A DNA stretch of 35,043 nt from Candidatus Aerophobota bacterium (GTDB lineage: Bacteria; Aerophobota; Aerophobia; Aerophobales; JAGGXI01), in NCBI GenBank assembly GCA_021163155.1, contig JAGGXI010000075.1:1-35043 (forward strand). The letters are read 5' to 3'. Under the pieces are notes generated by a model, which saw only the letters and a program-made list of their open reading frames with translations, was not told the origin of the DNA and did not search any database. The translations under genes were made by a program, and so were the position numbers. This document shows, piece after piece, positions 23,419 to 32,035 of the stretch; the first letter of the stretch is position 1, and each line of letters starts with the position of its first letter.

Positions 23419-23853
23419 TTGATTACTCCAGAGGATAAGTTTAGAAGTTATCTTAAGTCAAGGGGATTGAAATTCACTCCACAAAGGAGTTTTATTTTAA
23501 AGGAAGCATTCTTTTTTCAGGGACATTTTAATGTAGACCAACTTTACGAAAAGCTGCGTAAGAGAATCTCCCGAGCTACTATTTACAGAACTCTTTCTTT
23601 ATTGGTGAAGGGCGGCTTAATTGAAGAAACATTTCGTTGCCAGGATAAGGGTAGTTATGAATATATTTTTGGGCGGAAGCATCATGACCACTTGCTGTGC
23701 ATAAAGTGTGGCAAGATTATTGAATTTAGAGAAGATAAAATAGAAAAATTACAAGAAGAAGTTTGTAAAAGATATGGTTTTACGCCTATTGAACATAGGT
23801 TGGGCATTAAAGGGTATTGTGAGGAGTGTTCTAAAAGTTTAAAGAAGGGTTGA
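23419..23853 (+). CDS. fur: Fur-family metal-responsive repressor
   Basis: A 144-residue Fur/PerR/Zur-type regulator. The winged helix occupies about 1-85 with the recognition region SRATIYRTLSLLVKGGLIEE. The dimerisation domain has the HHDH metal site (near 92) and two C-x2-C pairs, CIKCG and CEEC, forming the structural zinc site. It starts at TTG 23419 after AGGAGA. It is followed 64 bases later by the feo operon, whose promoter carries the same palindrome as its own, so it most likely senses ferrous iron and controls iron uptake. PerR-type peroxide sensing cannot be excluded. Confidence 0.9.
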   Translation: MITPEDKFRSYLKSRGLKFTPQRSFILKEAFFFQGHFNVDQLYEKLRKRISRATIYRTLSLLVKGGLIEETFRCQDKGSYEYIFGRKHHDHLLCIKCGKIIEFREDKIEKLQEEVCKRYGFTPIEHRLGIKGYCEECSKSLKKG

Positions 23854-23902
23854 CAAATATTTTTTTTAAAATATAATTGTGATTGAATCTCAATTACAAT
23901 TA
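23850..23902 (+). promoter_or_regulatory. feo operon promoter with overlapping Fur-type operator
   Basis: TTGACA (23850-23855), 16-bp spacer, TATAAT (23872-23877). The palindrome TAATTGT...(15 nt)...ACAATTA at 23874-23902 starts inside the -10 exactly as at fur, with matching inner bases TTGA and AATT. The -35 overlaps the last codons and stop of fur. Transcription should start near 23884, downstream of the GTG at 23879, which rules that codon out as the feoA start. Confidence 0.82.
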
Positions 23903-23917
23903 CGAAAGGTAAGAGTT

Positions 23918-24148
23918 ATGTTTAACGGGTGTTTAAATGAGTTAAAACCTGGAGAATGGGGAAGGGTTGTAGCTATAGAAGGAGGACGGGGTATCAGACA
24001 AAAGCTTTTATTAAGAGGTATAACAGAAGGGAGTGTTATTAGGATGATATCCTGTTATCAGGGGCCAATTGTAGTGGAAGTTAATAGGAGTATAGTTGCC
24101 CTTGGCAGAGGCATGGCAAAAAAAATTAAGATAATAAGGGGGGATTAA
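23918..24148 (+). CDS. feoA: FeoA-domain ferrous iron transport protein (first)
   Basis: A 76-residue SH3-like FeoA protein thought to interact with FeoB. LKPGEWGRVVAIEGG, RGIRQKLLLRGITEGSVI and the closing VALGRGMAKKIKI fit the family. The frame is open back to GTG 23879, but that codon lies upstream of the predicted transcription start and inside the operator; ATG 23918, with GAAAGG nearby, is the sound choice and gives a normal FeoA length. A second feoA starts at 24149, sharing the TAAATG junction. Confidence 0.88.
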   Translation: MFNGCLNELKPGEWGRVVAIEGGRGIRQKLLLRGITEGSVIRMISCYQGPIVVEVNRSIVALGRGMAKKIKIIRGD

Positions 24149-24376
24149 ATGGAGAAAAAACTACCCGAGATGAGATATGAGGAGAAAGGTGTAGTGAAAA
24201 TGATAGAAGGAGGATTTCGAGAAAGAGTAGCCGGTATGGGTATCAGGATTGGTAAAGAGATTAAAATGCTTACAAAACAGCCTATGAAGGGTCCTGTAGT
24301 AGTAGTGGTAGATGATGCAAGGACGTCTTTAGGATTGAGGATAGCAGAGAAAATTATCGTGGAGGTAAGTAAATGA
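24149..24376 (+). CDS. feoA: FeoA-domain ferrous iron transport protein (second)
   Basis: A 75-residue FeoA domain (EEKGVVKMIEGGFRERVAGMGIRIGKEIKML...GLRIAEKIIVEV). It lacks obvious metal ligands. GGGGGGA lies just before the ATG, which abuts the stop of the first feoA, and its own last codons overlap the GTPase gene by 4 bases (ATGA). Tandem small FeoA proteins are common in anaerobes. It shares little identity with the first copy beyond the fold pattern, so the pair is not a recent duplication. Confidence 0.87.
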   Translation: MEKKLPEMRYEEKGVVKMIEGGFRERVAGMGIRIGKEIKMLTKQPMKGPVVVVVDDARTSLGLRIAEKIIVEVSK

Positions 24377-24918
24377 AGGTTTTACTTATGGGACATCCAA
24401 ATGTTGGTAAAAGTGCGGTTTTTAATCGTCTAACGGGAGCAAATGTTATTGAATCAAATTATCCTGGTACAACCGTTGATTATACAAAAGGATATATGCG
24501 GATAAAAGGTGAGGATATCACAGTTGTAGATGTCCCCGGGACATTTTCTTTAGAACCGAAAGATAAGGCGGAAGAGGTAGCAGTGAAGATGCTCGAGGAG
24601 GAGGAAGAAGGCACTGTGGTAATATGTGTTATCGATTCTTCAAAGATAGAGAGAGGGCTTTACTTGGCATTGGAAATTATGGAGAGAGGGTATCCAGTCA
24701 TGCTTGCCCTTAATATGTGGGACGTTGCTGAGGATAAAAATATAGATATTGACGTAGAGAAGTTAAGGAAAATTTTTGGCATACCGGTGATACCAACAGT
24801 GGCTATAAGTGGTGAAGGAATTGGGGAGTTAGTAAAGAAAATAAAAGAGACAAGGCCGGTTGAGGTGGATAAAATTATTAAAAAAGTGGGAGGTATAGAT
24901 GGAACTAACCGTCGATAA
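24373..24918 (+). CDS. feoB: FeoB G-domain as a separate protein (split FeoB, N-terminal half)
   Basis: A 181-residue soluble GTPase. G1 GHPNVGKS is at 7-14, G2 NYPGTTVD near 29-36, G3 DVPG at 53-56, G4 NMWD at 114-117 and G5 ISGEG near 145. It ends with KIIKKVGGIDGTNRR and stops, where normal FeoB continues through a helical GDI domain into the membrane part. The membrane half begins in another frame 20 bases before this stop, with its own ribosome site, so the split seems real. GTP hydrolysis by this protein should gate ferrous iron entry through the partner. Confidence 0.92.
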   Translation: MKVLLMGHPNVGKSAVFNRLTGANVIESNYPGTTVDYTKGYMRIKGEDITVVDVPGTFSLEPKDKAEEVAVKMLEEEEEGTVVICVIDSSKIERGLYLALEIMERGYPVMLALNMWDVAEDKNIDIDVEKLRKIFGIPVIPTVAISGEGIGELVKKIKETRPVEVDKIIKKVGGIDGTNRR

Positions 24919-26113
24919 ACGTTGGAATTTAATTGAGAGAATATCAAAGGAAACTGTAACCTTTGGCAGGTACAGGCATACATTAAAGGATGCGATTGGG
25001 GAGCTTACTGTTAAGCCTTTGATGGGTATACCTGTTGCCATTGCCGTTTTATACGGTTTCTGGAGTGTATTTTGCTCATTTGCGGGAACATTATGTACTG
25101 ATGGATTTCTCGTCAAGTTGTTTGATGCACGCTGGTTGCCCTGGATACAGGCAAATTTCCCCGGCAAAGGGAGTTGGCTTTATTATATTCTTGTGGGAGA
25201 CCCTTTAGCGGATAACTGTTTTGAGGCCTTTGGTGTGCTGACATCCGGACTTTTTGTTCCCTTTGGCGTTGTCTTACCCGCAGTGTTCATATTCTATCTG
25301 ATGCTTACACTGTTGGAGGATATAGGATATATGCCAAGACTTGCTGTGCTAATCGACACAGTTTTGCACAAAATCGGTTTGCACGGATATGCGATTGTGC
25401 CTACAATCCTTTCTCTTGGATGTAATGTTCCCGCGGTAACGGCAACGAGAATTCTGGAGACAAAAAAGCAACGATTTATAATGATGACACTCCTCGCCAT
25501 ATTCATTCCCTGCGGTGCTCAACTTGGAATTATGCAAGAGGTAATTCCTGATACGATGGGTTTAGTCTTGCTTTATCTACTTATAGGATATTTCATCTTT
25601 GGTTTTGTCTTGAATAAGGCTATTCCGGGAAGATGCCCAGAAATCTTGATAGACGTACCCTCTTATCAAATGCCCACAAGGCGCAATGTGGAAAGAAAGG
25701 TGTGGATGAGGACAAGCGGTTTCCTAAAAACTGCGGTTCCGTTTGTGTTGTTGGGTTGTTTGGTTGTGAATGTTTTGTATCTTGCTGGAGTTATCAGCTG
25801 GCTGGGTGATGTCTTCTCGCCTATTTTCATTAGTTGGTTTGGTGTGCCTAAGGCGACCGTGGGCCCATTAATTGCGGCATTCTTAAGGAAAGACCTCGCT
25901 GTGGCACAACTTAGCGCAATTGAGATGACCAAATATCAGATGATAACATCTGTAGTGCTTGTCTCTATCTACTTTCCCTGCGTGGCGACATTTGTGATGA
26001 TGCTTAAAGAAGGGTGGAGGGAGTTATTAGGAAGTTTGGGTGTTCTTGTAGCGGTCGTATTTCTCTACGGAGGTTTGCTACATTTAATATGGACATTAAT
26101 GGGGGTGGGATAA
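24899..26113 (+). CDS. feoB: FeoB membrane domain as a separate protein (split FeoB, C-terminal half)
   Basis: A 404-residue polytopic membrane protein. It opens with VDKRWNLIERISKET, the last helix normally joining the G-domain region to the membrane part of FeoB. Gate motifs are GCNVPAVTATR and FIPCGAQLG, with a third Cys-Pro site in YFPCVATF. The ATG 24899 is preceded by a stop codon (TAG 24896-24898) in its own frame and by GGGAGG at the right distance, so it is an independently translated ORF that overlaps the G-domain gene by 20 bases. Most of the GDI helical region is missing from both halves. Confidence 0.92.
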   Translation: MELTVDKRWNLIERISKETVTFGRYRHTLKDAIGELTVKPLMGIPVAIAVLYGFWSVFCSFAGTLCTDGFLVKLFDARWLPWIQANFPGKGSWLYYILVGDPLADNCFEAFGVLTSGLFVPFGVVLPAVFIFYLMLTLLEDIGYMPRLAVLIDTVLHKIGLHGYAIVPTILSLGCNVPAVTATRILETKKQRFIMMTLLAIFIPCGAQLGIMQEVIPDTMGLVLLYLLIGYFIFGFVLNKAIPGRCPEILIDVPSYQMPTRRNVERKVWMRTSGFLKTAVPFVLLGCLVVNVLYLAGVISWLGDVFSPIFISWFGVPKATVGPLIAAFLRKDLAVAQLSAIEMTKYQMITSVVLVSIYFPCVATFVMMLKEGWRELLGSLGVLVAVVFLYGGLLHLIWTLMGVG

Positions 26114-26114
26114 A

Positions 26115-26567
26115 ATGAGTAAAAATAATGTTGGTAGTTTATATTTTGGCATCCTGGGTGTCATTGCTTTAGCTTTTGGAATTGCAGATTTAGTAGTGAC
26201 AATAGGAGGGAGTAGCGTCTGTTGGGGTATTTTAGAGATACCTAACGATATGTTTAGAGGAGGATGGGGAGGATTTATCGTGCTATTTGCTGGAGTGTTT
26301 TACCTTTCAGGGACGAAAAATTTCTCTGAGATTCATCAATTTTCAAAAGTAGTAATGGGAAGTATCCTCATATGGATAATAGCGGGATGCGATATATTTG
26401 CGATGATCACCGAATCAATACCTGGAGGTGAAGAGGGCCCCTGGTTAAATACACTTGAGGGATTTCTGGGAACATATACGCCGCCTTATCCGCCAGCGAT
26501 ATTTTTATTACCCTTTTCCCTTGTAGCAATTTACTATATAAGAAAGAGGAAGCAATACGGAGGATAA
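26115..26567 (+). CDS. Small integral membrane protein of the feo operon
   Basis: Not recognised. 150 residues with about four membrane segments: LYFGILGVIALAFGIADLVV, GGFIVLFAGVFYL, VVMGSILIWIIAGCDIFAMI and AIFLLPFSLVAIYYI, ending in the basic RKRKQYGG. It starts one base after the FeoB membrane-half stop with GGGGTGGGA before it, so it is cotranscribed. It could be an accessory to the split transporter. No metal-binding cluster is evident. Confidence 0.7.
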   Translation: MSKNNVGSLYFGILGVIALAFGIADLVVTIGGSSVCWGILEIPNDMFRGGWGGFIVLFAGVFYLSGTKNFSEIHQFSKVVMGSILIWIIAGCDIFAMITESIPGGEEGPWLNTLEGFLGTYTPPYPPAIFLLPFSLVAIYYIRKRKQYGG

Positions 26568-27326: not shown

Positions 27327-27917
27327 ATGCTCAAAGAATCCGATATTTTAAAGATAGTAAAAGAGGATATGTTAAGAATATTGGGTGAAAGAAAAGAGAA
27401 AACCCCGTTAGGCTCTATTGAAACGGGAATTAAAGTTTTTAGTTCTTTTGTGTCTGAAGCAATTAAATGTCTTAAAGAAGAGGGTTTAATACGGGTTGAA
27501 GAAAAATTTGTTAAATTGACACAAATTGGACGAGATAAAGCAAAAGATATTTTAAGAAAACACCTTATTCTTGAGAATTACTTTAAGAAAACCTCAAATG
27601 AAAAGATAGCACATAGAAAAGCCCATATTCTTGAGCATTATATCTCCGAAGAAGTTATTAAAAATATAAAAAAGATATGTACATTAAAAGAAAAGGGAAT
27701 TTCTCTAACAAAACTTAAATTGCATAAAGAGAGCTTAATTGCTGATATTACCACTCCAAACAGTGAACTATTTGAAAGAATGGTTAGTATGGGAATATTT
27801 CCGGGAGAAGAGATAAATATAACAAATAAAATCTCAAATGGTGTTGTCGTTAAAATAAAAAACAAAAAATTTGCCCTCGGCAAAGATATAGCAAAAGAGA
27901 TTAAAGTGATAAAATAA
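27327..27917 (+). CDS. DtxR-like metalloregulator fused to a FeoA domain
   Basis: A 196-residue protein. Residues 1-70 form a winged helix (FVSEAIKCLKEEGLIRVEEKFVKLTQIGRDKA), residues 70-115 resemble the DtxR/MntR dimerisation region (HLILENYF...AHILEHYISEEV), and residues 130-196 are a FeoA/SH3 domain (LIADITTPNSELFERMVSMGIFPGEEINI...FALGKDIAKEI). DtxR relatives repress metal uptake with bound ferrous iron or manganese. It overlaps the second feoB by one base, so it may regulate or act with that transporter. The ribosome site is weak. Confidence 0.78.
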   Translation: MLKESDILKIVKEDMLRILGERKEKTPLGSIETGIKVFSSFVSEAIKCLKEEGLIRVEEKFVKLTQIGRDKAKDILRKHLILENYFKKTSNEKIAHRKAHILEHYISEEVIKNIKKICTLKEKGISLTKLKLHKESLIADITTPNSELFERMVSMGIFPGEEINITNKISNGVVVKIKNKKFALGKDIAKEIKVIK

Positions 27918-29821
27918 TGAGAAAACTTAAGATACTTTTAATTGGTCAACCAAATGTAGGAAAGTCATCGCTACTTAATGGATTGATTGGTTCAAGAGTT
28001 ATAGTATCTAACTATCCGGGAACTACAGTTGAAGTAATACAGGCAGAAAAAATTTTTAATAATACAAAAATAAAATTTGTTGATACACCGGGAATATATT
28101 CCATATCTGATAGAAGCGAGGAGGAAAAAGTTACTGAAAAGGCTTTGTTTGAAGAAAAAGTGGATGAGGCAATAGTGGTTGCCGATGCAACATCTCTTGA
28201 GAGAAGTCTTTATATGGCTTTGCAAATTTTGGAGGCGGAAATACCCACTGTTATAGCTTTAAATTTTGTGAGAGAGGCTGAAAAGAAAGGAATAAAGATC
28301 GATTCAAAAAAATTGGCAAAACTTCTTAATATTCCAGTTATGCTTATAAATCCTTTAACTAAAAGGGGGATAAATGAACTTGTAGATATAATATCAAGAA
28401 TTAAAAAGAGGAAGGGGCGGAGTTTTAAGATTAAATACGATGACCATATAGAAGAGGCAATAAATAAAATATCATCGCAGATAAAGGAAACTTCCATACC
28501 AACGAGATTTATAGCATTAAGAGTTTTAGAAGAGGATGAGGATTTTTATAAATATTTGAAGGATAAGAGAGTAATTGAAGAAGTTAAAGAGAGTTTAGCA
28601 GAACATCCAAAAGTTGCAGAGAATGTATCCATAACCAGATATGGAACAGCCTCATTTATAGCAGAAAGGATTACTAAAATAGTTCCTTTAGAAAAAAGAC
28701 TACAACCCTATGGGTCCCTAAGATTGCAAGAAAAAATTGATGATATTTTATTTCGTAAAATATGGGGTTCATTTATAACTGGTTTATTTATTCTTACTAT
28801 CTTTGGAACGCTGTTATATCTGGGCAATTTTATACAAAATATTCTTATGGATTTAACAGAGAGCTTTTTGTCTTTTTTTGGCACAGCAGAACATTCTATT
28901 ACTGCTATGATATTAGTTCAGGGTTTAACGGGGCTTACAGCGGGTATTTCTGTTGCTTTGCCCTATGTGTTTCTGTTTTATCTGTTTTTGGGATCACTGG
29001 AAGACATAGGACTCCTTTCCAGATTTATTGTTAATGCGGAAAGGTTTTTGAAAAAATTAGGTCTTTCTGGAAAATCATTTATTCCCTTAGCTCTTGGTTT
29101 AGGTTGTTCTGTGCCGGCAATTAGGGCTACCAGGATCTTGTCTTCTAAAAAAGAACAATTTCATACCGCATCGTTGTTTGCTTTTACACCTTGCTCCTCA
29201 AGGATCGCCATAATAATGGGGATAGTTGGATTTTATGGAGGTATAAAGTTGGCTTTTTCTGTTTTTGCCACTTTATTTGTGGCTGGTTTAATTTGGGCTT
29301 TTTTTATTAAAAAAATTGTTCATATAAAAAGTAAATATCTACTTTTAGAATTGCCTCCTTATAGAAAGCCTTTAATTAAAAATATTCTTGCTAAAAGCTG
29401 GATTAGAATGAAGGATTTTGTATATATAGTTATACCTTTGCTGATACTCGGAGGAATAGCTTGCGGTATTTTAAATGTAACGGGTTTTTCTAAATATATA
29501 GTAGAGCCCCTTTTACCAATCACTACCTGGTTGGGATTACCTGCGATGACTATTATCCCTTTAGTATTCGGATTTTTACAGAGAGATTTAACTGGAGCAA
29601 TGCTTTTATCAGTTTTAGGCAGCAAAATATCTTTAGCTATGACTCCCCTTCAAATATATACATTTGGTATAGCTTCTACAATTGGAATACCATGTATAAT
29701 TGCTTTAGGAATGCTTATTAAAGAATTTGGATTTAAGAAAGCAATAGTTTTAACAATAACCTCAATAGTTTACGGTCTTTTATTTGCTGGTTTAGTTTGG
29801 AGAATAGTCTCTCTTTTTTAA
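27917..29821 (+). CDS. feoB: Ferrous iron transporter FeoB (second, full-length)
   Basis: A 634-residue unsplit FeoB. G1 GQPNVGKS is at 10-17, G2 NYPGTTVE near 32-39, G3 DTPG at 56-59. The G4 position reads NFVR (116-119), lacking the Asp of N-x-x-D that reads guanine. A shortened helical region follows, then the membrane part from about residue 280 with gate motifs GCSVPAIRATR and FTPCSSRIA, plus GIPCIIALG. It starts at the TAATG junction with the regulator gene. Two adjacent FeoB systems of different build suggest different affinities or metals; which is inference. Confidence 0.9.
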   Translation: MRKLKILLIGQPNVGKSSLLNGLIGSRVIVSNYPGTTVEVIQAEKIFNNTKIKFVDTPGIYSISDRSEEEKVTEKALFEEKVDEAIVVADATSLERSLYMALQILEAEIPTVIALNFVREAEKKGIKIDSKKLAKLLNIPVMLINPLTKRGINELVDIISRIKKRKGRSFKIKYDDHIEEAINKISSQIKETSIPTRFIALRVLEEDEDFYKYLKDKRVIEEVKESLAEHPKVAENVSITRYGTASFIAERITKIVPLEKRLQPYGSLRLQEKIDDILFRKIWGSFITGLFILTIFGTLLYLGNFIQNILMDLTESFLSFFGTAEHSITAMILVQGLTGLTAGISVALPYVFLFYLFLGSLEDIGLLSRFIVNAERFLKKLGLSGKSFIPLALGLGCSVPAIRATRILSSKKEQFHTASLFAFTPCSSRIAIIMGIVGFYGGIKLAFSVFATLFVAGLIWAFFIKKIVHIKSKYLLLELPPYRKPLIKNILAKSWIRMKDFVYIVIPLLILGGIACGILNVTGFSKYIVEPLLPITTWLGLPAMTIIPLVFGFLQRDLTGAMLLSVLGSKISLAMTPLQIYTFGIASTIGIPCIIALGMLIKEFGFKKAIVLTITSIVYGLLFAGLVWRIVSLF

Positions 29822-30178: not shown

Positions 30179-32035
30179 ATGTATATAAGAAAAACAGTTA
30201 AAAAAGTTAAAGATAAGGTATACGAGAATTACCTTTTAGTCGAGTCCATTGCAACTCCTAAGGGGCCTCGCCAGAGGACTATCTGTTCCATTGGCCATCT
30301 TAAACCAAGACCAAGAGAAGAATGGCTTCACCTTGCCAGAAAGGTAGAGACTGCTCTTAAGGGTCAGCTAACCTTTGAGAAAACAGAACCCGAAGTAGAG
30401 GAACTGGTAAGAAAAGCCAGGGAATTTAAATCTCAGGATAAAAGATCACCAGGAAAGAAAAATGATGATATCGTTTCTATTCATACCGATAAGGTTGAAA
30501 TGGAAAAGGCAAGAGAAGCTGGCCCTGTCTATGTGGGATACGAGTTCTGGAGAAAGCTTGGAATAGATGATATCCTTAAAGAGGCAGGATTTTCTAAAAG
30601 AACAAGGTTATTAACCCTTGTTATGGCAATGAACCGTCTCATAGCCCCCTCATCAGAACATAGAATACCGGGATGGGTCAATGGTACAGCTCTTCAAGAT
30701 ATCCTTTCTGCTGATTTAGAGAGCTTGAATGATGAGGCTCTGTATCGTAATATGGATAAGCTCTATCCAAAGCGAGGGGTTATTGAGAAACTGTTAGCTG
30801 AAAAAGAGAGGAATCTATTTAAGCTTGATGATACAATCTATCTGTACGATTTAACTTCCACTTATTTTGAAGGAGAGGCTCTTTCTAACCCCCAAGCACA
30901 ATATGGTTATTCGAGAGATAAAAGATTTGATTGCAAACAGGTTGTAGTAGGGTTAGTGGTTGATCGTGATGGATTTCCTAAGGCACATGAGATTTTCTCC
31001 GGTGAGCGAAAAGATGCTACCACTGTAGGTGAGATGCTGGATATCCTCAAGAAAAGAGTGAGCAAAAGGAAGGAAACTACCGTAGTTGTAGATAGGGGTA
31101 TGGCTTATGAGGACAATATTAATGAGATTAAGGAAAAAGGATACCATTATATTGTAGCTACCAGACAGACAGAGAGGAATCAATATCTCGATGATTTTGA
31201 AGAAGGAGGCTTCTGTGAGCTCATTAGGAGTGTATCACCAACAAATTCTTCCAAGAAGAAATCAGGCGTTTTTATAAAGAAAATAGAAAAAGAAAACGAG
31301 CTTTACATCCTTTGTATTAGCGAGGGAAGAGGAGAAAAAGACAAATCGATTAGAGAATCTCACGAGAAAAAGCTAAAATGTGACCTTAAGAAGTTAACTA
31401 AAAGGATTAATAAGGGACGATTGAAAAAAGAAGAAAAAATATATGAGGCGATTGGAAGAATCAAAGAGAGATATCCCCGTGTAGCACGCTACTACAAAAT
31501 AGAGTACGATAATCTTACTAAACAACTGTCCTATCAAGAGAACACTGAAAGAAAGTCTGTTGCAGAAACCTTAGATGGAAGCTACATGCTAAGAACAGAT
31601 AGATGTGATATGAGCGATGATGAGATCTGGCGCACCTACTCACTTTTAACCAGGGCTGAGAATGCTTTTCGTAACATGAAAAGTCCATTATGTGAAAGAC
31701 CAATTTTCCATCAACTTAAAAGAAAAGTTCAAACCCATATCTTTTTATGTATCCTCGCTTATCATCTGTTAGTAGCTATTGAAAAGACCTTTCTTGATAA
31801 GGGGATACATACTTCTTGGGGAACAATCAAGGATACACTAAAAACTCACCAGGTTGCTACAGTTATTCTGCCAACAACCAGTGGTGAGATTTTAAAAATT
31901 CGTCGAGGAGTTAATGCAGAACCTCAGCATCTCGAAATTTATAAGAACCTTCGTATTCCTTCTAAGATTATGAAACCCATAAAAACATGGCATACTAAAA
32001 ATATAGTGACTGAACGGACTCGCAAACCCCTATAA
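30179..32035 (+). CDS. IS1634-family DDE transposase
   Basis: A 618-residue transposase. The DDE residues are likely D in IYLYDLTSTYFEG (near 224), D in VVVDRGMAYED (near 304) and E in LTRAENAFRNMKSPL (near 496); the last matches the Y-x2-R/x-x-E-x-x-F-R-x-M-K pattern of IS4 relatives. The N-terminus (YIRKTVKKVKDKVYENYLLVES) is typical of IS1634. There is no Shine-Dalgarno sequence, as expected for a leaderless mRNA. The stop codon lies in a CCCCTA/TAGGGG stem (32026-32041) that may end transcription. The ORF is intact, so the element may be active. Confidence 0.92.
   Translation: MYIRKTVKKVKDKVYENYLLVESIATPKGPRQRTICSIGHLKPRPREEWLHLARKVETALKGQLTFEKTEPEVEELVRKAREFKSQDKRSPGKKNDDIVSIHTDKVEMEKAREAGPVYVGYEFWRKLGIDDILKEAGFSKRTRLLTLVMAMNRLIAPSSEHRIPGWVNGTALQDILSADLESLNDEALYRNMDKLYPKRGVIEKLLAEKERNLFKLDDTIYLYDLTSTYFEGEALSNPQAQYGYSRDKRFDCKQVVVGLVVDRDGFPKAHEIFSGERKDATTVGEMLDILKKRVSKRKETTVVVDRGMAYEDNINEIKEKGYHYIVATRQTERNQYLDDFEEGGFCELIRSVSPTNSSKKKSGVFIKKIEKENELYILCISEGRGEKDKSIRESHEKKLKCDLKKLTKRINKGRLKKEEKIYEAIGRIKERYPRVARYYKIEYDNLTKQLSYQENTERKSVAETLDGSYMLRTDRCDMSDDEIWRTYSLLTRAENAFRNMKSPLCERPIFHQLKRKVQTHIFLCILAYHLLVAIEKTFLDKGIHTSWGTIKDTLKTHQVATVILPTTSGEILKIRRGVNAEPQHLEIYKNLRIPSKIMKPIKTWHTKNIVTERTRKPL

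Follow-up and report, generated by a model that had tools for sequence, protein, structure and literature searches.

A FeoB subfamily without the guanine-reading aspartate in bacteria and archaea, and its possible use of ATP

Whether FeoB acts as a GTP-gated channel or as an energised pump is unsettled, as is its nucleotide requirement (PMC11406355, PMC4847171). The question is raised in a particular form by a contig of Candidatus Aerophobota bacterium (assembly GCA_021163155.1, contig JAGGXI010000075.1), of which the stretch analysed, 35,043 nucleotides long, is referred to as the window. The second feoB gene of the window (27917–29821, + strand) encodes a protein of 634 residues in which the fourth nucleotide-binding motif (G4) reads NFVR in place of N-x-x-D. 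Does such a protein still select guanine? The answer proposed here, from sequence comparison, is that the protein is an accessory FeoB of a distinct subfamily, in which guanine selection has probably been lost and ATP serves at least as well as GTP, although this is favoured only slightly over its negation.

The window FeoB and its G4 motif

The protein has a G domain, a cytosolic helical domain, Gate motifs and a FeoB_C domain, with matches to FeoB_N, FeoB_Cyto, Gate and FeoB_C. It scores 376 bits against the equivalog model TIGR00437 (cut-off 315.65), with model positions 1–594 of 594 covered. Because this curated NCBI model scores it as an ordinary FeoB, annotation would not reveal the subfamily. 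The domain order, P-loop, switches, Gate motifs and three membrane Cys residues are shared with canonical FeoB (TIGR00437; E. coli), which differs in having the G4 Asp; the window protein has Asn-Pro in the G5 loop and Ser428 and Ile595 beside two of the Cys residues.

An earlier note on this DNA had described G1 and G3 as perfect and G4 as lacking the guanine-reading Asp. Both statements are borne out. The G1/P-loop GQPNVGKS (residues 10–17, 27944–27967, including Asn13 and Lys16) and G3 DTPG (residues 56–59, 28082–28093) are intact, as is G2/switch I NYPGTTVE (residues 32–39, 28010–28033, including Thr37), all on the + strand. With regard to G4 (residues 116–119, 28262–28273, +; codons AAT TTT GTG AGA), Arg119 is aligned at the Asp position: three phmmer alignments with solved FeoB G domains, those of T. 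maritima (3a1s) and M. jannaschii (2wjg) among them, run through G4 with no gaps, and the equivalent of Arg119 in E. coli K-12 FeoB is Asp123 in our alignment. A displaced N-x-x-D, named in the note as a possible refutation, was rejected, as neither NxxD nor [NT]KxD occurs within residues 1–170. The NMWD reported for the neighbouring split FeoB was likewise found, in its G-domain half (24373–24918, +). In addition, the G5 loop of the window protein is altered, with Asn-Pro-Leu (residues 145–147, 28349–28357, +) replacing the usual [V/I/S]-[A/G/S]-x.

In an AlphaFold2 model, Asn116 lies at a strand end and residues 144–151 form a loop leading into the following helix, which is where G4 and G5 should be. 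The rows listed in a fold-library search mostly correspond to model residues 1–255, and the cytosolic part matches E. coli NFeoB bound to GDP (Z 28.6, 249 residues aligned); the membrane part matches CNT nucleoside transporters (Z 17.7–18.1).

Signature and occurrence of the subfamily

A comparison set of 98 distinct FeoB G domains, comprising 35 members of the subfamily (window included) and 63 others, was assembled from matches spanning residue 40 or earlier to residue 160 or later. Members were chosen by G5 (Asn145 followed by Pro or Leu at 146), so that the G5 counts are true by definition, while the agreement of residues 119, 428 and 595 and of the tree with membership is independent of this choice. 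The non-members are FeoBs that score well against the window protein in the sampled genomes and are not a random sample of the family. Outside the 35 stand one partial member (L049, with NFVE and NPL) and five partial relatives with no G4 in hand (L051–L053, L106 and L127).

The other members are 38–76% identical to the window protein. Residue 119 is Glu in 34 of the 35 members and Arg only in the window, as opposed to Asp in 61 of the 63 others, the remaining two having Tyr (L059) and Lys (L082). In G5, residue 145 is Asn in 35/35 members and in 0/63 others, and residue 146 is Pro in 34 members and Leu in one, compared with Ala, Gly or Ser in all 63 others; the third position, 147, is Leu, Val or Ile in all 35 members (Leu147 in the window) and never Thr. 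Two membrane positions change together with these. Residue 428, two after Cys426 (Cys426-Ser427-Ser428, 29192–29200, +), is Ser in 34/34 members and Ala in all 60 others with a letter there, and residue 595, two after Cys593 (Cys593-Ile594-Ile595, 29693–29701, +), is Ile in 34/34 members compared with Ala (54), Ser (5) or Val (1) in 60 others. The third conserved membrane Cys, Cys397 (29105–29107, +), is equivalent to E. coli Cys403 by alignment. Asn13, Lys16, Asp56, Gly59 and Asn116 are invariant in the 35 members, and residue 37 is Thr in 34 and Ser in one. In a smaller comparison of 17 members with 48 others, the majority residue of the members differs at seven positions that are at least 90% conserved in the 48 (20, 63, 119, 366, 428, 505 and 595).

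The loss of the Asp in the subfamily is thus real and old. The earlier emphasis on NFVR was right in that the Asp is gone; however, the clade as a whole follows NxxE, from which only the window departs with its Arg. The Arg119 codon, AGA, is two base changes away from GAA or GAG, and the window assembly consists of 119 contigs; the Arg may have arisen recently or, with lower probability, reflect a misassembly.

The members have one origin in the trees. In the first, of 61 full-length proteins (4 short rows of 65 omitted), 16 members formed one branch with support 100/100 on a long stem. The second omitted 10 named rows of 87, short ones included, and both it and the third were built without the trait columns. 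In the third tree, from which G4, G5 and both membrane stretches had been removed (93 of the 98 rows used; L037 and rows under 560 residues omitted), 34 members formed one clade (SH-aLRT 100), within which L100 grouped with six G1175-class proteins (support 76), apart from all remaining members (support 100). Whole-gene comparisons of the window with 14 relatives gave dN of 0.13–0.17 and dS of 0.72–1.06 for the eight nearest, and dS of at least 2, or saturated, for the six more distant. Since dN is far below dS, the member genes are under purifying selection.

It could be supposed that the G domain is degenerate or dead, because a redundant FeoB is decaying or the window was misassembled, and both the singleton Arg119 and the two other FeoB loci of the genome would suit such a view. 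It is nevertheless highly improbable. The subfamily does not appear dead because its catalytic motifs are conserved; moreover, the ratio of dN to dS is that of maintained genes, linkage to a regulator is kept (see below), and two members (L123 and L125) lie on contigs of 2.0 and 1.2 Mb.

The subfamily is rare yet widely scattered, in bacteria and archaea. A contig scan over GTDB species gave 17 loci with close relatives, some of them partial. Whole-genome searches found members in 4 of the 386 genomes surrounding that of the window, 3 of 50 in the phylum of G387, 6 of 147 in that of G386, 4 of 296 in that of G395, 3 of 300 in that of G390 and 6 of 294 in that of G388, and in 7 of 229 genomes in the G1175 class, where one of the seven is partial and has no G domain. 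These genome sets partly overlap, and the E limits were strict (1e-60 to 1e-115), so that distant members were possibly missed. Non-members were removed by motif from among the listed matches: 10 of 14 in the surroundings of the window genome, 2 of 8 in the G386 phylum, 12 of 15 in the G390 phylum and 1 of 7 in the G388 phylum. The archaeal presence is given by L123 and L125, in the class of G1175, itself taken from the phylum that holds a bin labelled Thermoprotei, and by five similar proteins in the phylum set of a bin labelled Methanosarcinaceae.

Cross-domain gene transfer is not claimed from the contig-scan matches, which come from metagenome bins with mostly short contigs; some binning errors are likely, as L038 (labelled WOR-3) and L040 (labelled Methanosarcinaceae) have very similar regulators. 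Plasmid carriage as a cause of the spread was rejected, as the four plasmid records found at E 1e-60 or better were all 29–31% identical, and so was viral carriage, the scan of viral contigs having given no relative (the phage collection was not searched). Directly after feoB in the window lies a DDE transposase gene (Pfam DDE_Tnp_1, 30179–32035), which could relate to the scattered distribution.

Nucleotide use

In Ras-type proteins, the backbone NH of the second G5 residue contacts O6 of guanine. In the alignments, the base-independent apparatus of the subfamily (Lys16, Asn13, Thr37, DxPG and Asn116) is kept, whereas the positions that recognise guanine have been substituted as a set. The most economical reading appears to be that base use is relaxed or switched, because the loss of the Asp is clade-wide and G5 has changed with it. 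A pocket that lacks the Asp carboxylate and has Pro as its second G5 residue would no longer favour GTP; the retained Asn116 and the new Asn145 may hold adenine, so that ATP would bind and be hydrolysed. The helical domain would link this hydrolysis to passage of a divalent metal in the membrane domain, as has been proposed for other FeoBs; in the membrane domain the three conserved Cys residues are kept and the residue two positions after two of them is changed.

Two families offer precedents for such a change. YchF/OLA1 proteins carry NxxE at G4 (PMC8779481, PMC9748339), as do the 34 other members, and within the GTPase fold this motif is held to be the likely cause of their ATP use. E. coli YchF prefers ATP (PMC8138138), human OLA1 is said to bind ATP only, and a rice YchF with mutated G4 was GTP-only (PMC9748339). 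The relation is through the G fold alone: YchF belongs to the Obg family, has no membrane domain and has an SCA or SAK G5, and some of its members use GTP. The window FeoB did not match the YchF model TIGR00092 at E 0.001, and reached 19.7 bits against the YchF-related NF007171 (cut-off 387). The YchF of the window genome itself (at G000:C1) has NVGE at G4 and SAK at G5, as read by eye. SpoIVA is an ATPase of GTPase descent whose G4 reads NSxR and so shares its Arg with the window protein. When NSxR and SxE were introduced into Era, ATP was hydrolysed and the specificity for GTP hydrolysis was lost (PMC7952092). SpoIVA differs from the members in being a spore-coat protein with an SxE G5, which also contributes to its specificity. 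Both Glu and Arg occur at residue 119 within the one clade studied here, each with a changed G5.

In ordinary FeoB, loss of the Asp is not neutral, since the D123N form of E. coli FeoB did not restore iron transport (PMC8980893); in addition, iron-stimulated GTPase activity was absent from P. aeruginosa D123N (PMC4847171).

The earlier suggestion that the loss would let this transporter use ATP or any nucleoside triphosphate (NTP) is supported in its direction by the clade-wide loss and the concurrent change of G5. However, ATP is the better-founded guess, because the NxxE and NxxR precedents use ATP, some of them GTP too, and the use of any NTP is one of the rival explanations. In its full form, this rival holds that the pocket is relaxed and takes several NTPs, with no base or GTP somewhat favoured, as an extreme case of the FeoB of V. 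cholerae, which is a promiscuous NTPase. The position of its residue 150 is Thr in strict GTPases, among them FeoBs of the E. coli type (E. coli 151), and variable in promiscuous ones; in the V. cholerae protein, Ser148 and Asn150 have a bearing on the use of ATP (PMC11406355). By way of E. coli numbering (V. cholerae Asp122 = E. coli Asp123), and not by direct alignment, these two residues correspond to Asn145 and Leu147 of the window, and the absence of Thr from the third position in 35/35 members suggests a possible likeness in non-GTP nucleotide use; the E. coli type differs further in its NxxD. Plant YchF1, which has NxxE and hydrolyses both ATP and GTP (PMC9748339), also suits promiscuity. 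On the other hand, the promiscuous FeoBs that have been tested retain the G4 Asp, V. cholerae FeoB keeping Ser148 as well (PMC11406355), in contrast to Arg or Glu119 and Asn145 in the members, and a set of replacements (Glu, Asn and Pro) that stays fixed across deeply diverged members looks like the result of selection for a particular property. General promiscuity is considered unlikely.

Another rival is that the members are still GTPases, with Glu119, one methylene longer than Asp, and Asn145 reading guanine in a shifted geometry. The carboxylate is indeed kept as Glu in 34 of the 35 members, and T. maritima FeoB tolerates another G4 change (TAID). However, the Arg of the window cannot stand in for a carboxylate, and Pro146 occupies the second G5 residue, at which Ala to Ser is enough to displace the base in S. 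thermophilus NFeoB (PMC4266920); the GTP-only behaviour of the G4-mutated rice YchF also implies that the NxxE form is not GTP-only. Retained guanine reading is as doubtful as general promiscuity.

Several points weigh against preferential ATP use itself. Glu119 might still reach guanine, and plant YchF1 indicates that NxxE can mean relaxed rather than switched base use. The YchF precedent has an ordinary G5, SCA in rice (PMC9748339) and SAK in the window genome, and no tested precedent for a G5 Pro was found. In SpoIVA, restoring the Asp alone gave no significant change in ATP or GTP efficiency, and the G5 Glu of SxE, which the members lack, also matters; in Ras, Asp to Asn gives a preference for xanthine (PMC7952092). 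Two non-members, L059 (NMVY) and L082 (NMVK), have lost the Asp without the G5 Asn-Pro or the rest of the package. Finally, the structural model is of moderate quality (mean pLDDT 71.6, from a 17-row alignment), with switch I below 50 and no ligand.

A natural clade in which guanine recognition is missing and catalysis is kept would let the FeoB nucleotide question be tested directly: should its members prove to be ATP-driven and yet able to transport, FeoB function would not depend on guanine. Such a clade would also add a further GTPase-to-ATPase switch to those of YchF and SpoIVA, and to our knowledge the first in a transporter. No published description of a FeoB clade with this signature was found in titles and abstract openings, the subscription literature lying mostly outside the search.

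Regulator, cargo and other FeoB genes

Immediately upstream of feoB, and overlapping it by one base, is a gene for a DtxR-family regulator of 196 residues with a C-terminal FeoA-like domain (27327–27917, +). Both Fe_dep_repr_C (43.1 bits) and FeoA (46.5 bits) of Pfam are matched above cut-off; the N-terminus has no Pfam helix-turn-helix (HTH) match at E 0.001, and alignments with SloR, ScaR and others span the HTH region weakly. The earlier note had singled out a DtxR-FeoA fusion as the partner of this FeoB. The linkage is tight, such a regulator lying upstream on the same strand in 35 of 36 member loci with at least 240 bases upstream (the near-identical L043 and L044 counted apart); however, a C-terminal FeoA-like domain is normal DtxR architecture (PMC4805248) and not a special fusion. 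Most of these regulators overlap or abut feoB, although L039, L041 and L098 leave 100–190 bases; those of L041, L045 and L099 are cut by a contig edge, and only L097 lacks one. Weaker DtxR-FeoA-like matches occur in 21 non-member FeoB loci, so the pairing alone is not unique. At L105 (3380–4366, − strand), the regulator has 328 residues, with an extra PadR-like domain N-terminal to DtxR-FeoA.

Expression of feoB is probably set by this co-encoded metal-sensing regulator. Control apart from the other feo operon, as had been proposed, is plausible because a Fur-family gene adjoins that operon, but no operator site was found: upstream stretches of 13 loci, read by eye with no statistical motif test run, gave no convincing shared palindrome.

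As regards the metal carried, Mn(II) is left open beside Fe(II) by the paired change after Cys426 and Cys593 and by the Asp14-type regulator. In 29 regulators, with ligands mapped by alignment and from PMC4805248, the residues aligned with metal ligands are Asp14 (29), His79 (28), Glu103 (29) and His104 (29), and residue 100, at the position of DtxR Cys102, is His, Asp or Asn (19, 8 and 2). Asp14 is aligned to the Asp of manganese sensors. A parallel is provided by P. gingivalis, where a FeoB-type manganese transporter shares its operon with PgMntR, a DtxR-type protein with FeoA domains (PMC4805248). The resemblance between this pair and the window genes is one of operon layout, in that a DtxR-FeoA regulator is co-encoded with a FeoB paralogue (FeoB2, or FB2); a difference is that PgMntR carries two FeoA domains. 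The main change in the subfamily could then be its cargo, the protein being an importer of Mn(II) or another divalent metal with the G-domain change secondary. This is compatible with ATP use and overlaps with it in probability. The fixed Ser428 and Ile595 and the regulator residues would agree with it; however, metal ligands alone do not decide between Fe and Mn, the three conserved membrane Cys residues remain, and a NifU_N (Fe-S scaffold) gene stands between regulator and feoB in one member operon (L042, 1292–1717), which suggests an iron link for that operon. A change chiefly of cargo is possible but on balance rather unlikely. The broader proposal, that bacteria and archaea share a dedicated ATP-driven FeoB, marked by G4 Glu (Arg in the window), G5 Asn-Pro and the paired change beside two membrane Cys residues, and perhaps bringing in Mn(II) or Fe(II) under the control of a metal sensor of its own, is put forward tentatively, at somewhat less than even confidence.

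A member of the subfamily is usually a second FeoB of its genome. At least one further clear FeoB was found in 12 of the 17 contig-scan genomes (G386–G392, G394, G395, G399, G401 and G402) and a weaker one in G396; G393, G397, G398 and G400 had none, several of these assemblies being small. The window genome has two further FeoB loci, each split in two frames, with G4 motifs NMWD and NMVD. The one in the window follows a Fur-family gene (23419–23853) and two FeoA genes (23879–24148 and 24149–24376; together 23419–24376, +), and its membrane half lies at 24899–26113 (+). In both split FeoBs (24373–26113 and G000:C36:573–2479), the G-domain and membrane open reading frames (ORFs) overlap in different frames. 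Their nearest matches in G386, G391, G392 and G394 are single open frames, and the split may be natural or due to a frameshift or an assembly error. After the split FeoB of the window comes a 150-residue ORF (26115–26567) with no Pfam match at E 0.001.

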